The notes under the pieces: generated by a model
Database searches by the model: none
What the model saw: only the letters and a program-made list of their open reading frames with translations
Told to the model about the DNA's origin: nothing
Program-made: the position numbers and the translations under genes
DNA from: a bacterium
GTDB lineage: Bacteria > Tectomicrobia > Entotheonellia > Entotheonellales > Entotheonellaceae
Assembly (NCBI GenBank): GCA_027294925.1
Contig: JAPULM010000458.1
Span: forward strand, 1-5,888
Length of the DNA: 5,888 nt
Reading direction: 5' to 3'
Part shown: one piece after another, positions 1 through 5,888 of the stretch
How the letters are laid out: every line of letters begins with the position of its first letter
How positions within the stretch are numbered: position 1 is the stretch's first letter

Positions 1-387
1 GCGAATGCGGGGTGGTTCGATCTCTTCCGGCAGCTTACGTAGGATGTCGTTGATTTTTTCCCGTACATCGAGTGCGGCCAGATCGATGTTGGTACCCCAG
101 TTAAAGTCGACTGTGACTCTTGAGCTATCCTCACTGGAGGATGAACGAATGGTTCTAACATTGTTGATGGTAGCTAGCGTTTTTTCGATCGGATCGGTCA
201 CCAAGCGTTCGACGATTTCGGGCGCTGCGCCCTCGTAGATAGTGGAAACCGAAACCGATGGGCGGATGACGTCCGGCAGTTGATCAACGGCAAGACGCGA
301 GAGTGAAATAAGGCCTAACACGAGGATGGCGAGGAAAAACATGCCGGTGGTGACCGGACGGCGGACCGCAAGAGCGGAGAGGTTCAT
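1..387 (-). CDS. RND-family efflux transporter, inner-membrane permease (N-terminal 129 residues, partial)
   Basis: This gene encodes the start of a resistance-nodulation-division (AcrB/HAE-type) permease, which uses the proton gradient to export substrates with an adaptor and an outer-membrane channel. Translating the minus strand from 387 gives 129 residues and the frame is still open at base 1, so most of a protein usually about 1000 residues long is missing. Residues 1-12 are the cytoplasmic N-tail, with the family's 'RRPVTT' pattern at 9-14. Residues 15-33 form the first transmembrane helix. The first porter segment follows, with LPDV (37-40), Y51-E-G-A-A-P-E (51-57) and VTDPIE (63-68), all typical of RND pumps. 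The start is ATG at 387-385, preceded by AAGGAGGG (398-391) three bases upstream. It overlaps the adaptor stop as ATGA, so the two genes are very likely translationally coupled. Substrate cannot be told from this fragment; multidrug or metal export are both possible. Confidence 0.93.
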   Translation of the reverse strand, partial: MNLSALAVRRPVTTGMFFLAILVLGLISLSRLAVDQLPDVIRPSVSVSTIYEGAAPEIVERLVTDPIEKTLATINNVRTIRSSSSEDSSRVTVDFNWGTNIDLAALDVREKINDILRKLPEEIEPPRIR

Positions 388-1664
388 GATCCCTCCTTAG
401 GCCTAGGCTTGACGATTTTAACGGATGCTTTGTCCTTGAGTTTTTGATGCCCAGCCAGCACAATGGTGGCGCCTGCTGGTATATCGAAGATTTCGACCTG
501 CAACCTATTTTGCAGACCCGTGCTGACCGGACGGCGGTGTGCTTTGCCGTCTTGCACCACGAATACAGCGGTTTCTTTGCCTTGCACGGAAAGCGCCTGG
601 AGCGGCACGAGTAGCACATCGTGGCGTTCTTCCAGAATGAGCGTGACCTTGGCGAACATGCCCGGCTTTAGGCGGGCGTCAGTATTGGGCGAAACAATTT
701 CCACCTCACCGCTACGGCTGCGGGGGTCGACGGTTGGACTGATGCGCCGCACGATGCCCTTAAACACGGTTTGCGGATAGGCGTCCACCCGTATCTGGGC
801 GCTGAGGCCCGGCTGTATGTGTCCGAGGTCACGTTCGCTAATCGGTATCTTGATTTTCACCGTTGTCATGTCCACAATAGTAACCAGAGTCGTACGATCG
901 GTGATATAAGTGCCGGGGTCGACATGCCGATGGCTGACAATGCCGGTAATCGGTGCTGTGATGACGGCATTTTGCAGTTCGGCTTTGGCCAGACGTCGCG
1001 CTGCTTGGGCCGCCCGCAGGTGGGCCTGCAGGGCTTGCCGGTCTTCGATACGGGCGCCAGCTCTTAGCAGTTGCAACCGTTTTGCCGCAATGCTATGGGC
1101 GGCCTGGGTGCGTGTGATGCGCAGGTTGGCGTCTTCCAGATCTTGGGTGGAACGCAAACCGCGTTGTACCAGAGCGTGGGTGCGTTTCTGTAACCGTTCC
1201 GCATTGGTTTTTTCGGCGCCGCTTTGTTGTTCGAGATCGACCGCCTGCGCAATCTCCTCCGGCCGGGCGCCGGCTTGCATCTGCGCCCATTCGGCACGCA
1301 GGGCATCGAGTTCGGCGGTGCTTCGCTCAAAACCGGCTTTCAATTCGGTGTCGGTAATTTGGGCAATGATTTGACCGGCTTGAACAGTATCTCCCTGCTC
1401 AACCAGGAGGGTTTGTAGACGTCCTTCAACTTTGGAAAAAACGTCGATACGAGCGGCGGCAAGAATGTCGCCGGTGGCGAAGGTGGTATGTTGAATGGTG
1501 CCGCGTTGAACCGTTGTCGTATAAATGGGAGTCGGTTTGCCGGATTTGCGTTTGGAGACGGCAGCCGTATTTTGAGAGCGCGACGTGGGGAGGTAGGTGA
1601 AAAGTAAAAAGGCAACAATCAGAAGACTAACTAAAAGTATTAAAATTTTTGTCGTACGGTGCAT
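384..1664 (-). CDS. RND efflux periplasmic adaptor (membrane-fusion protein, HlyD/AcrA family)
   Basis: This is a 426-residue periplasmic adaptor that links an inner-membrane pump to an outer-membrane channel. Residues 7-25 are a hydrophobic signal-anchor. No lipobox cysteine follows, so it is probably held by this helix rather than by lipid. Residues 74-104 are the first half of the lipoyl/barrel-sandwich domain (EGRLQTLLVEQGDTVQAGQ). Residues about 108-232 form a long charged alpha-helical coiled-coil hairpin. Residues 233-265 are the second lipoyl half (ITAPITGIVSHRHVDPGTYI). Residues about 268-345 are the beta-barrel, with the conserved LKPGM at 332-336, and 346-418 are the membrane-proximal domain. 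An upstream ATG at 1868 is open in the same frame. I chose ATG 1664 because AAGGAG sits six bases upstream of it, the signal-anchor begins right after it, and the promoter lies at 1750-1777, downstream of 1868. The gene overlaps the RND permease by ATGA and is first in the operon. Substrate is unknown. Confidence 0.94.
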   Translation of the reverse strand: MHRTTKILILLVSLLIVAFLLFTYLPTSRSQNTAAVSKRKSGKPTPIYTTTVQRGTIQHTTFATGDILAAARIDVFSKVEGRLQTLLVEQGDTVQAGQIIAQITDTELKAGFERSTAELDALRAEWAQMQAGARPEEIAQAVDLEQQSGAEKTNAERLQKRTHALVQRGLRSTQDLEDANLRITRTQAAHSIAAKRLQLLRAGARIEDRQALQAHLRAAQAARRLAKAELQNAVITAPITGIVSHRHVDPGTYITDRTTLVTIVDMTTVKIKIPISERDLGHIQPGLSAQIRVDAYPQTVFKGIVRRISPTVDPRSRSGEVEIVSPNTDARLKPGMFAKVTLILEERHDVLLVPLQALSVQGKETAVFVVQDGKAHRRPVSTGLQNRLQVEIFDIPAGATIVLAGHQKLKDKASVKIVKPRPKEGS

Positions 1665-2995: not shown

Positions 2996-3089
2996 AAGCG
3001 TTAGGGGTGAGAGCCGGCCGGCAAGGCGCCTGCTGTATGAGCCTTGAGAAGAATCAGGAGGGTTTTACTACGCCATATGGAGCTTTATC

Positions 3090-4055
3090 ATGACGTCTTG
3101 TCCGACCTTTGCCGATGTTCAACAAGCCGCTGAGCGCATCAAGCCGTATGCCCATCGTACGCCGGTCTTCACCTGTAACAGTTTGAACGAGATGTTGAGT
3201 GCCACTCTTTTTTTTAAGTGCGAAAACTTTCAGAAAGCAGGGGCCTTCAAGTTCCGTGGCGCTTGCAACGCTGTCTTCTCGCTTTCCGATGAGGAAGCCC
3301 GGCGAGGCGTCGCCACCCATTCCTCGGGCAATCACGGTGCTGCACTGGCGCTGGCAGCGCGCTTGCGTGATATCCCAGCCCATATCGTCATGCCGACCAA
3401 TGCGCCAGCCATTAAGCAGGCTGCCGTAGCCGGGTATGGCGGCAGTATTGTGTTTTGTGAACCGACACAAGCGGCGCGTGAGTCTACCCTAACTGATGTG
3501 GCGCAGGAAACCGGCGCCAACTTTATTCCGCCCTATAACGACACACGGGTAATTGCTGGACAAGGAACGGCTGCCTTGGAGCTTTGTGAGGATATTGCAA
3601 GACTTGATGTGGTCATGGCGCCGGTTGGCGGCGGTGGCCTGATTAGCGGTACGGCCTTGACGGTGGCGGCGCTATCGCCCACCACACGGGTGATCGCGGC
3701 CGAACCGGCCGGTGCCGATGACGCCTACCGGTCGCTGCACAGTGGGCAGATTCAACCGTCGCTTAATCCGCAGACCATTGCCGATGGCCTGCGGACATCG
3801 CTTGGTGACCTCACCTTTGCAATCATTCGGCGTCATGTGGAGCAGATTGTGACAGTGAGCGAAGCCGCCATCATTGAAGCCATGCGGCATGTGTGGGAAC
3901 GTATGAAGATTGTTATTGAGCCGTCGGCTGCTGTTCCCGTCGCTGCGCTGCTGGAAAAGCACATTGATTTGTCTGGCCTGCGCGTTGGTGTTATTCTGTC
4001 CGGCGGCAACGCCGATCTTGATCATCTACCTTGGCAGTCGGCGTCATCCGTCTGA
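3090..4055 (+). CDS. PLP-dependent threonine/serine dehydratase, serine racemase-like (fold type II, no ACT domain)
   Basis: This is a 321-residue cytoplasmic enzyme of the tryptophan-synthase-beta (fold type II) PLP family. It probably deaminates L-threonine or L-serine to 2-oxobutyrate or pyruvate, or racemises serine. Visible residues are the PLP lysine K54 in KAGAFKFRGA (49-58), the substrate loop HSSGNHG (77-83), where S79 matches the second catalytic base of serine racemases, the phosphate-binding glycine loop G180-G183, and SGGN (304-307) near the PLP pyridine nitrogen. E205, A209 and D211 in the stretch AAEPAGADDAY have the spacing of the divalent-cation site of serine racemase (E210/A214/D216 in the human enzyme). 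The protein ends after the catalytic domain, so it lacks the regulatory ACT-like domain of biosynthetic IlvA and is probably not feedback-inhibited by isoleucine. A hydroxyaspartate dehydratase role is also possible. The start ATG has GGAG (3079-3082) seven bases upstream. A stronger AGGAGGG (3056-3062) lies further away. Confidence 0.92.
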   Translation: MTSCPTFADVQQAAERIKPYAHRTPVFTCNSLNEMLSATLFFKCENFQKAGAFKFRGACNAVFSLSDEEARRGVATHSSGNHGAALALAARLRDIPAHIVMPTNAPAIKQAAVAGYGGSIVFCEPTQAARESTLTDVAQETGANFIPPYNDTRVIAGQGTAALELCEDIARLDVVMAPVGGGGLISGTALTVAALSPTTRVIAAEPAGADDAYRSLHSGQIQPSLNPQTIADGLRTSLGDLTFAIIRRHVEQIVTVSEAAIIEAMRHVWERMKIVIEPSAAVPVAALLEKHIDLSGLRVGVILSGGNADLDHLPWQSASSV

Positions 4056-4076
4056 TGGCCATGCAGCGGCCATTTT
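4055..4076 (+). terminator. probable intrinsic terminator after the dehydratase gene
   Basis: ATGGCC (4055-4060) and GGCCAT (4068-4073) form a six-base-pair stem around a seven-base loop, followed by T residues and a pyrimidine-rich tract (TTTTCCCTTT, 4073-4082). The hairpin starts on the last base of the dehydratase stop codon. The stem is short and the T run is broken by C residues, so strength is uncertain. It sits where the acyl-CoA dehydrogenase/dehydratase unit should end. Confidence 0.5.
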
Positions 4077-4125
4077 CCCTTTCGCCCCAAGGGAGCATAA
4101 AGAATTGCATGGCCCTCTGACCATG

Positions 4126-4152
4126 TTGTGGCGTATGGTTATGTGGTATAGT
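4126..4152 (+). promoter_or_regulatory. probable extended -10 promoter of the yggX/radical SAM unit
   Basis: TATAGT (4147-4152) matches the -10 consensus at five of six bases. It is preceded by TG one base upstream (TGG-TATAGT), which makes an extended -10. The best -35-like element is TTGTGG (4126-4131), with a short 15-bp spacer, so recognition would lean on the extended -10. Transcription would begin near 4159, about 33 bases before the yggX ATG. Its position after a hairpin terminator supports a separate transcription unit. Confidence 0.5.
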
Positions 4153-4191
4153 GAGGGCAATACACCAAAAGCCAAGCTGAGGAATTGATTT

Positions 4192-4512
4192 ATGGCACCC
4201 CGTACGGTTTTCTGTACAATATTGCAGAAAGAAGCGCCTGGCATTGACGCAACCGAGTTGCAGGGCGAGGTAGCGCTGGATATGGTTGAAGCGATTGGCG
4301 GCAAAGCGCTACGCCAGCGCATCTACGACAAGGTCTCGTGGGAAGCCTGGGAACAGTGGAAGGGGCATCTGACCATGTTGATGAATGAGCACCGTCTTGA
4401 CCTGATGGACCCCCAGACCGACGCCTTCATTCGGGAGCAGATGGAAGCCTTTTTCTTTGGTGGGGGTGCCGAACCGCCTTCCGGCTATGTGCCACCGACT
4501 GACAAGGAGTGA
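4192..4512 (+). CDS. yggX: YggX-type Fe(2+)-trafficking / oxidative damage protection protein
   Basis: This 106-residue cytoplasmic protein belongs to the YggX (iron-trafficking) family. Members are linked to protecting Fe-S clusters from oxidative damage and to handling labile iron. The N-terminus R-T-V-F-C-T-I-L-Q-K-E-A (4-15) carries the conserved cysteine (C8 here, C7 in E. coli). The core EAWEQW (51-56), TMLMNE (61-66) and the Gly-Tyr-x-Pro end (98-101) match the family. Against the roughly 90-residue E. coli protein, as I remember it, there is an insertion of about 13 residues between D19 and R43, and the C-terminus has extra prolines. GAGGA (4179-4183) lies eight bases before the ATG. 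The stop TGA is 6 bases before the radical SAM start, and that gene's ribosome site (AAGGAG, 4504-4509) lies inside yggX, so the pair is probably coupled. The joint location suggests a link between iron supply and an Fe-S enzyme, which is inference. Confidence 0.92.
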   Translation: MAPRTVFCTILQKEAPGIDATELQGEVALDMVEAIGGKALRQRIYDKVSWEAWEQWKGHLTMLMNEHRLDLMDPQTDAFIREQMEAFFFGGGAEPPSGYVPPTDKE

Positions 4513-4518
4513 GCCGCT

Positions 4519-5888
4519 ATGCGTGTGGTTCTGATTTCCACCTATGAGATCGGGCGCCAGCCGTTTGGTCTCGCCTCACCGGCCGCCTGGTTGCGGCGAG
4601 CCGGTGCTACGGTCGATTGTCAGGACCTATCCCAGGGGCCGCTCTATGAAGCGGATGTTATCGCAGCTGATCTGGTGGCGTTCTACGTGCCGATGCACAC
4701 CGCCACCCGCATTGCCGCGCCTGTGGTGCAACGGGTAAAAGCGCTGAATCCAACAGCGCATTTGTGTTGCTACGGTCTGTATGCACCCATGAACGAAGCC
4801 TATCTGCGTGGCCTTGGCGTCGATACCCTCCTGGGCGGCGAGTTCGAGACCGGCCTGGTGCATTTGGTTGGCCGTTTGCAGAGCGCCCAGCCACAGCCGA
4901 TGACGCAACCCGAACCGCTGGTATCGCTTGAGCGGCAGCAGTTTTTGACACCGGACCGGCAAGGCTTGCCTCCCCTGGACCGCTATGCACGATTGGTGCT
5001 TGGCGATGAGCTCCGTGTGGTGGGCTATACGGAAGCCAGCCGTGGCTGCAAGCATGTCTGTCGGCACTGTCCCATTGTACCGGTCTACAACGGCCGTTTT
5101 CGCATTGTGCAGCGCGACGTGGTATTGCAGGACATCCGGCAACAAGTTGAGTCCGGCGCCGAGCATATAACATTTGGCGACCCGGATTTTTTTAATGGTC
5201 CTGGGCACGCCCTACCACTCGTGCAGGCCTTGCAGCACGCATTCCCCGGCCTGACCTATGACGTCACGATTAAAATCGAACATTTGTTGCGCTATGCTGA
5301 GCATTTGCCGACCTTGCGTGACACCGGCTGCATACTGATTACCAGCGCAGTGGAGGCGGTGCAGGATGATATCTTGCAGCGCCTTGACAAGGGACACACA
5401 TGCCAAGACTTTTTAGAGGCCCTGGCGCTGTGCCGCAGCATGGATATCCCCCTCAATCCCACCTTTGTCGCCTTTACCCCGTGGACAACGCTGGCGTACT
5501 ACCTCGAGCTGCTCACCGTGCTAGCCGAGCAAGGATTGGTCGAGCACGTTGCCCCCATCCAATTGGCCATGCGCCTTCTCATTCCAGCCGGTTCTAAACT
5601 ATTGGAGCTAGCGGATATTCACGCTGTCATTGAGGGATTTGATGATAGTGCCCTGATCTATCGGTGGCGGCATGCTGATTTGCGGGTCGACCGATTGTGC
5701 GACGATGTCCTGCAACTGGTGCAGAGTGGTGAGGCCGAGGGTGCCGAGCGGCGCGACCTGTTTACCCGTCTATGGGCAGCCGCCCACCAAGCGGCGGGAC
5801 GCATCATACCGCCCGTGCCGCAAGCGATGGTTGTCACACCCCGTGGTCCGATTCCTTATCTCAATGAGCCCTGGTACTGTTGAGCAGA
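4519..5888 (+). CDS. Cobalamin-binding-domain radical SAM protein, probable CUAEP-tail selenoprotein (3' end cut by the window)
   Basis: This is a B12-binding-type radical SAM protein. Residues 1-125 form a Rossmann-like cobalamin-binding domain, with VPMHTATRIAAPV (57-69) and YGLYAP (85-90); the DxHxxG cobalt-ligand motif is absent. The [4Fe-4S] motif is CxxxCxxC at C177, C181 and C184 (SRGCKHVCRHCP), followed by a TIM-barrel core with TFGDPDFFNG (218-227) and a C-terminal region from about 350 to 454. It should cleave S-adenosylmethionine reductively to start radical chemistry; substrate and product are unknown. Translation reaches C454 and then TGA (5881-5883), GCA and GA. Read as selenocysteine, this gives Cys-Sec-Ala-Glu/Asp, matching the family known to me as CUAEP/CCAEP-tail radical SAM (seleno)proteins. 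I therefore treat the TGA as probably recoded and the gene as continuing past 5888. If TGA is a true stop, the gene ends at 5883 with 454 residues. The start ATG has AAGGAG nine bases upstream and follows yggX by 6 bases. Confidence 0.9.
5881..5883 (+). other. candidate selenocysteine (UGA) codon, Sec455
   Basis: This in-frame TGA follows the codon for C454 and precedes GCA (Ala) and GA, the first two bases of a Glu or Asp codon. The residues C-U-A-(E/D) agree with the CUAEP tail of a radical SAM (seleno)protein family whose other members carry CCAEP. A Cys-Sec pair at the extreme C-terminus would be a redox or metal/selenium-handling motif. A bacterial SECIS hairpin would lie directly downstream, beyond the window, so it cannot be checked here. 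Confidence 0.75.

Follow-up and report, generated by a model that had tools for sequence, protein, structure and literature searches.

Results

A radical SAM gene at the edge of the window

The window, by which we mean the whole stretch of 5,888 nucleotides analysed here, ends within a radical SAM gene whose open reading frame (4519-5883, forward strand) runs for 454 codons; its last residues are NEPWYC, and TGA, GCA and the two bases GA follow (Table 1). The first-pass annotation had read this end as Tyr-Cys-TGA-Ala-(GA-) and guessed at the family named for a CUAEP or CCAEP tail. Both readings stand: the frame is W-Y-C-TGA-GCA-GA to the last base of the window, and residues 3-454 match the NCBIfam family NF040546, 'CUAEP/CCAEP-tail radical SAM (seleno)protein', with 627.6 bits against a cut-off of 500. 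The first-pass reading of the enzyme as B12-type fits the fold, the predicted model (pLDDT 93.8) having AprD4, OxsB and TsrM as its closest folds, although Radical_SAM is the sole domain matched by Pfam in the window protein, the B12-binding domain PF02310 being present in some of its relatives. TGA was treated as Cys in the 51-sequence alignment used for the invariant columns of Table 1, and the cysteines of the CxxxCxxC motif correspond to C178, C182 and C185 in the numbering of the relative L001. The best database matches reach 86% identity to the window protein, and among those with a name are an Entotheonellaceae bacterium and a Tectomicrobia bacterium (78%) and Entotheonella factor (72%).

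A YggX-like gene lies directly upstream on the same strand, not only in the window but also in the relatives L001, L002, L083 and L084, and it is likely that the two genes share one operon. The window further carries a dehydratase-like gene, on which the best 20 of the 57 matches of a plasmid DNA search with positions 3000-5888 all fall, and two efflux genes at its other end. Rfam gave nothing at gathering scores on the window.

Table 1. Positions of the features discussed, in the window and, where a locus (L) or genome (G) is named, in relatives
Feature	Position	Strand	Basis or remark
RND efflux pump gene (cut) and membrane-fusion partner gene	1-1643	-	
Beta-hydroxyaspartate dehydratase-like gene	3090-4055		480.7 bits, cut-off 550
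YggX-like Fe(2+) trafficking gene	4192-4512	+	PF04362, 99.2 bits; gap of 6 nt to the radical SAM gene
CUAEP-tail radical SAM gene, very probable selenoprotein	4519-5888	+	NF040546 match and tails of relatives; open beyond the window end
CxxxCxxC [4Fe-4S]/SAM motif (Cys177, Cys181, Cys184)	5047-5070	+	Invariant columns, 51-sequence alignment
Cys454 (TGT), first half of the probable Cys-Sec pair	5878-5880	+	Invariant column in 51 sequences
TGA, very probable selenocysteine 455	5881-5883	+	Codon states in 72 relatives
Start of conserved tail: Ala (GCA, 5884-5886) and first two Glu bases (GA, 5887-5888)	5884-5888	+	A-E-P in 71 of 71 readable relatives
In-frame TGA at the invariant Cys of the ligase	L001:7251-7253, L002:8301-8303, L083:3851-3853, L084:3851-3853		Identical hairpin after the codon
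Second ligase copies	G002:C1:867107-868333, G051:C1:1806766-1807992, G052:C1:1520292-1521518		No internal stop

The TGA codon and the tail beyond it

A single scan of genome contigs returned 80 loci from many phyla; 8 of them end before the tail, and in the other 72 the codon in question could be read, one of these 72 being masked by N further on, after GC. The codon is TGA in 48 of the 72 relatives, TGC in 16 and TGT in 8, so that homologues with Cys at position 455, for which the first-pass annotation had suggested looking, do exist (24 of 72); TAA and TAG were met in none. Directly after it, A-E-P is found in all 71 readable relatives, the 24 Cys-encoding ones included. What the window itself shows of the tail is C-TGA-GCA-GA, the third base of the Glu codon and the Pro lying beyond its end, and judging from the relatives Glu-Pro would follow Ala here as well; GCAGA fits GCN-GA[A/G], and by our own estimate four matching bases would arise by chance about once in 200-250 cases. 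The tail was not found to end at CUAEP, as had been supposed, since it runs for about 11 residues past Sec, commonly in the form [U/C]AEPT-EEQ-x-A (AEPTEEQVAPF after Sec in L001), with the hairpin described below within these codons; about 11 residues after Sec are likewise expected in the window.

Of the 120 best database matches, 118, the window's own protein among them, finish at W[YF]C and no further, where the DNA has either a stop codon or the end of a contig. In Thermomicrobium roseum (L085:5935-7371) the annotated gene terminates at the TGA despite its CUAEP/CCAEP-tail product name, although the plasmid copy reads on into A-E-P after the TGA; SelA was not found on the plasmid of this organism, which was the part searched. 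One locus (L042:2655-2660, TGA TGT) has the order of Sec and Cys swapped, W-Y-U-C-A-E-P, with the TGA one codon early.

A hairpin that accompanies TGA

Bases 10-36 past the codon fold with a mean energy of -9.7 kcal/mol in TGA loci (n=47) versus -3.8 kcal/mol in Cys loci (n=24; Mann-Whitney p 2e-10), the masked locus L019 being omitted here and the short L035 also left out of the following test. When compared with their own synonymous-codon variants, the TGA loci have a mean z of -1.91 (n=46, 20 under 0.05), whereas that of the Cys loci is +0.07 (n=24, none under 0.05). With the better of two registers taken for each locus, 6.2 of 7 stem bases are paired in the 48 TGA loci as against 3.7 of 7 in the 24 Cys loci, and the two registers account for 34 and 14 of the TGA loci. 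In the commoner one (34 loci, 30 different sequences) the pair 6-20 is G-C in 17, A-T in 13 and never broken; the inner pairs of the hairpin covary, and the outer ones are often broken. There are exceptions: the Cys locus L008 retains the hairpin, the TGA locus L010 has a weaker fold than its synonymous variants, and the tail of L083 favours a different fold at this place. Folded singly, seven stretches do not stand out from their dinucleotide-shuffled versions (z -0.2 to -1.2); the case for the hairpin rests on the comparison across loci. By analogy the stem in the organism of the window would lie at about 5896-5914, beyond the window end.

Selenocysteine machinery and exchange of Sec and Cys

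Genes for Sec use were sought in the genomes of 27 of the 48 TGA loci and 23 of the 24 Cys loci, with the omission of L061, which has the same isolate name as L027. SelA is present in 26 of the 27 TGA genomes, counting a 169-bit fragment below the cut-off at a contig edge in G001 (the genome of L001), and in 6 of the 23 Cys genomes (Fisher p 1.5e-7); SelB scores over the cut-off in 24 and 7 of them (p 3e-5), and tRNA-Sec reaches at least 57 bits in 21 and 7 (p 0.001), kinship being ignored in all three tests. The threshold of 57 bits was chosen because lower scores occurred in all 14 control genomes; 34 of the 50 genomes pass the curated 47 bits. L067 belongs to the only one of the 27 TGA genomes without SelA, SelB and tRNA-Sec. 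One or more Sec markers are found in 8 of the 23 Cys genomes, so that loss of Sec use alone does not account for the Cys alleles. Among five genomes of the phylum of L002, all have tRNA-Sec and SelB over the cut-off and four have the radical SAM gene.

The Sec/Cys label changes at least 10 times on a tree of 69 radical SAM sequences that was built with the tail excluded, and four of these changes are forced by well-supported branches. The window is grouped with L001, L002, L083 and L084 (SH-aLRT 98), all of which have TGA. A kinship-corrected test of the allele against the Sec genes had only three supported pairs to draw on.

An ATP-grasp ligase as the partner gene

Clustering of the neighbouring genes covered 84 neighbourhoods (83 loci and the window, with L002 counted twice, the second time as L081). 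An ATP-grasp ligase is the commonest neighbour (47 of 84), followed by NfuA-like (21), YggX-like (14, window included) and aconitase (11) families, of each of which one or two members were domain-scanned. Near the radical SAM gene, NfuA-like Fe-S genes and aconitase turn up repeatedly (L003, L005, L012, L016 and others), as does YggX, which lends the neighbourhoods an iron-sulfur theme. No NCBIfam family scored above its cut-off for the partner ligase. In the one member scanned with Pfam (L003) it has the ATP-grasp_4 (PF13535) and LAL_C2 (PF18603) domains, and the predicted fold of the L083 protein (pLDDT 90.3) is matched by Foldseek to BL00235 (3vot; E 1.4e-34, TM 0.82). With the domains of L-amino acid ligases in L003 and the BL00235 fold in L083, the partner looks like an ATP-grasp amino-acid-ligase-like enzyme.

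The ligase is present in 38 of the 53 loci that have at least 2 kb on either side, and the remaining 15 genomes have it elsewhere (12) or are without it (3). In L052, which has Cys in both genes, the two are adjacent. Of 151 genomes of the Chloroflexota, the phylum of L028, 38 carry the radical SAM gene and 49 the ligase. None of the 38 is without the ligase, which only 11 of the 113 genomes lacking the radical SAM gene possess (Fisher p 4e-26, kinship ignored); the profile behind this count was derived from ligases close to the radical SAM gene and may favour such ligases. The two genes lie within 3 kb of each other in 29 of the 38. Internal TGA codons occur in 14 of the 38 radical SAM matches, and stops in none of the 49 ligase matches. 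The 11 Chloroflexota genomes with a ligase and no radical SAM gene, and the 3 genomes in the reverse situation, speak against a strict pairing. We regard the pairing of the two genes as highly probable.

A second in-frame TGA, in the ligase

The ATP-grasp core of the partner ligase has an invariant Cys that follows an invariant R and I-G-G (motif R-x-I-G-G). This site was readable in 54 different loci and 2 repeats (L081, L082), with L027, L074 and L078 as partial matches; it is TGC or TGT in 50 loci and TGA in the four others, which are precisely those of the window's group (L001, L002, L083 and L084). Past the TGA the frame is open and similar for 121-125 codons, into the C-terminal domain, and third positions vary most. 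After the TGA, all four loci have the same letters in codons 5-11, which contain GGGAC-CGGGAU-GUCCC, whereas most of the surrounding codons vary. The synonymous-codon control gives a modest signal for this hairpin (mean z -1.63, n=4, 2 of 4 under 0.05), as compared with -0.35 in the Cys loci (n=50, 3 under 0.05). A frameshift or a decaying gene was considered as the cause of the break and rejected, as the same codon stands at the same place in four different genomes and the frame is conserved after it.

Gene callers have shortened the ligases of the window's clade, mostly to 290-301 residues. Among the 120 database clusters nearest to the 301 residues before the TGA, 81 end at IGGL, 37 continue with Cys, one continues with E and one is unreadable, the stop codon of the 81 being known only where DNA was read. 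Several ligase clusters and radical SAM matches come from contigs of equal size (178745 and 69237 bases, for example), which suggests, but does not prove, that they are linked. A second, unlinked ligase copy was found in three of the four genomes with a TGA ligase, and Cys was read in two of these copies; in all three genomes (G002, G051 and G052) only the copy beside the radical SAM gene has TGA. In the fifth genome of the phylum of L002, which lacks the radical SAM gene, the ligase has Cys. Not all ligases with a Tectomicrobia title have TGA: L010, which stands elsewhere on the tree, has TGC, and P0227 continues with Cys. By the conservation around it, the ligase TGA in the window's clade is probably a second selenocysteine codon.

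Discussion

The proposal of the first-pass annotation that TGA 5881-5883 is recoded is supported by the Cys alleles of the relatives, by the TGA-linked hairpin and by SelA, SelB and tRNA-Sec in TGA genomes, and the codon is almost certainly one for selenocysteine. If it were an ordinary stop, the protein would end at Cys454 and the tail would be untranslated, which is how gene callers treat it and how the Thermomicrobium roseum gene is annotated. However, A-E-P is kept throughout the readable relatives, including those 24 with Cys, where the tail must be translated; the hairpin covaries and is linked to TGA; SelA accompanies TGA in all but one of the 27 genomes; and every stop at this place is TGA. 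An ordinary stop is extremely improbable. Both recoding sites, their hairpins and the gene pairing are supported computationally, the ligase gene with its TGA lying outside the window and being seen in relatives, and recoding and pairing are together likely to hold, a judgement that leaves the chemistry aside.

With respect to known families, the radical SAM gene shows no difference from NF040546 (rSAM_CUAEP), with which it has the C-TGA-A-[DE] tail in common. The description line of that family names no function, neither it nor the literature searched names a partner ligase, and a literature search on CUAEP, CCAEP and RCCLKC found nothing. By sequence, the closest characterised family is ArsL (NF040542), the only other NCBIfam family above 50 bits for the window protein, which at 273.4 bits nevertheless stays below the cut-off of 450. 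The tails differ as well: the relatives have W-Y/F-C-U/C-A-E-P, with which the window protein agrees as far as the window reaches, whereas the RCCLKC tail of the ArsL type is another and longer one. Two plasmid proteins with RCCLKC tails (33 and 30% identity to L001) have a vicinal Cys pair at the C-terminus, and MAFFT sets it on the Cys-Sec pair across a long gap; this is a likeness and no proof of descent. An ATP-grasp gene is present in three of the four ArsL/RCCLKC-type plasmid clusters that were opened, but these genes lack the invariant Cys of the partner ligase, and no ATP-grasp gene lies within 5 kb in the Pseudomonas plasmid cluster, the sole one with a gene named arsL. The three clusters, from Priestia, Alicyclobacillus and Pantoea (L086, L087, L089), have RCCLKC tails and a varying set of ars-type or transporter genes nearby.

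In predicted fold and in domains the partner ligase resembles the L-amino acid ligases BL00235 (PDB 3vot) and BacD. What sets it apart is the residue past R-x-I-G-G, an invariant Cys in whose place the window's clade has TGA; the corresponding stretch of BL00235, the closest ligase with a solved structure, is free of Cys. Sec in place of a conserved Cys and a hairpin just downstream of the UGA are described for known bacterial selenoprotein families (PMC13188914), which the relatives of the window resemble in both respects. The main text of that 2026 selenoprotein review mentions none of CUAEP, NF040546 and ATP-grasp, and that of the Entotheonella/Tectomicrobia papers PMC4996862 and PMC10227082 mentions neither selenium nor radical SAM. 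Literature searches found no related paper on ATP-grasp selenoproteins, no description of a Sec-containing ATP-grasp ligase, although an earlier mention in the Haft papers (2023, 2025) is possible, and nothing on a biosynthetic gene cluster combining radical SAM, ATP-grasp and arsenic.

We propose that the TGA is read as Sec with the aid of a hairpin that overlaps the remaining tail codons, which would give an ArsL-related, B12-type radical SAM enzyme with a C-terminal Cys-Sec pair. The partner of this enzyme in a two-gene pathway would be an ATP-grasp amino-acid ligase, and in the window's clade this ligase would likewise use Sec, in the loop past R-x-I-G-G. The radical SAM enzyme may transfer a SAM-derived group, which the analogy of ArsL suggests to be 3-amino-3-carboxypropyl, to a soft atom bound by the Cys-Sec tail, be it As(III), another metalloid, or sulfur or selenium, and the Cys or Sec of the ligase would hold the same atom, or the activated acid, while the product is coupled to an amino acid. 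This group transfer and ligation, drawn by analogy, is put forward tentatively. So, and with no greater assurance, is the full picture of two selenocysteines in one two-enzyme pathway, a new family of selenoprotein ligases, both selenols acting on a shared soft-atom intermediate, and a possibly metalloid-containing, peptide-like metabolite yet to be discovered.

Other roles for the two residues have to be weighed against this proposal. Thioredoxin reductases have a C-terminal Cys-Sec, and the tail could similarly serve as a redox relay, a selenylsulfide or thiol pair that delivers electrons or resets the enzyme, with the Sec of the ligase as a separate redox switch. The vicinal Cys-Sec itself, the repeated exchange of Sec and Cys with the swapped order in L042, and the iron-sulfur and iron-handling neighbours would all suit such a relay; yet the lone Cys or Sec by the ATP-grasp catalytic motif has no obvious redox partner and none of the four scanned neighbour families is thioredoxin-like, and we regard the relay as unlikely. 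The residue of the ligase might instead act in covalent catalysis, accepting the acyl group of the acyl phosphate to form a thioester or selenoester ahead of the amide. Within the ATP-grasp core it comes after the invariant R and I-G-G, which fits this role, but the aligned stretch of BL00235 lacks Cys, and ligases of that type are not known to use such an intermediate. We consider a covalent catalyst slightly more doubtful still.

A further alternative is arsenic chemistry proper, in which the pair would make an arsenic-containing amino acid and couple it to a further one, in a pathway related to arsinothricin biosynthesis. Vicinal thiols are classic ligands of As(III), ArsL is the nearest characterised family, and the ATP-grasp genes of the plasmid clusters point the same way. 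Moreover, cells with arsL alone are reported to have produced hydroxyarsinothricin from As(III), aminocarboxypropyl transfer from SAM being predicted (PMC8552651), and Entotheonella, the host of the 72%-identical relative, is reported to accumulate arsenic (PMC5333131). On the other hand, seven ars protein probes, all single-sequence probes, gave four weak matches, in 3 of the 84 loci; the radical SAM family is spread over many phyla; the score lies below the ArsL cut-off; and the plasmid ATP-grasp genes without the Cys, together with an arsL-named cluster without an ATP-grasp gene nearby, also count against it. We consider an arsenic-specific role improbable, on a par with the relay.

The Sec reading of the window gene is by itself not new, as recoding in the radical SAM family is already known and is encoded in the NCBIfam family name. 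What appears to be new is a partner ligase that tracks the radical SAM gene and, in the window's clade, very probably has a second Sec of its own, and this gives the family a pathway context. The ligases of the window's clade also show how annotation can lose a C-terminal domain in a whole group of enzymes. Together, the radical SAM gene and the ligase point to an uncharacterised two-enzyme pathway, and they offer a testable enzyme pair in which Sec has seemingly been acquired at two steps of one pathway.
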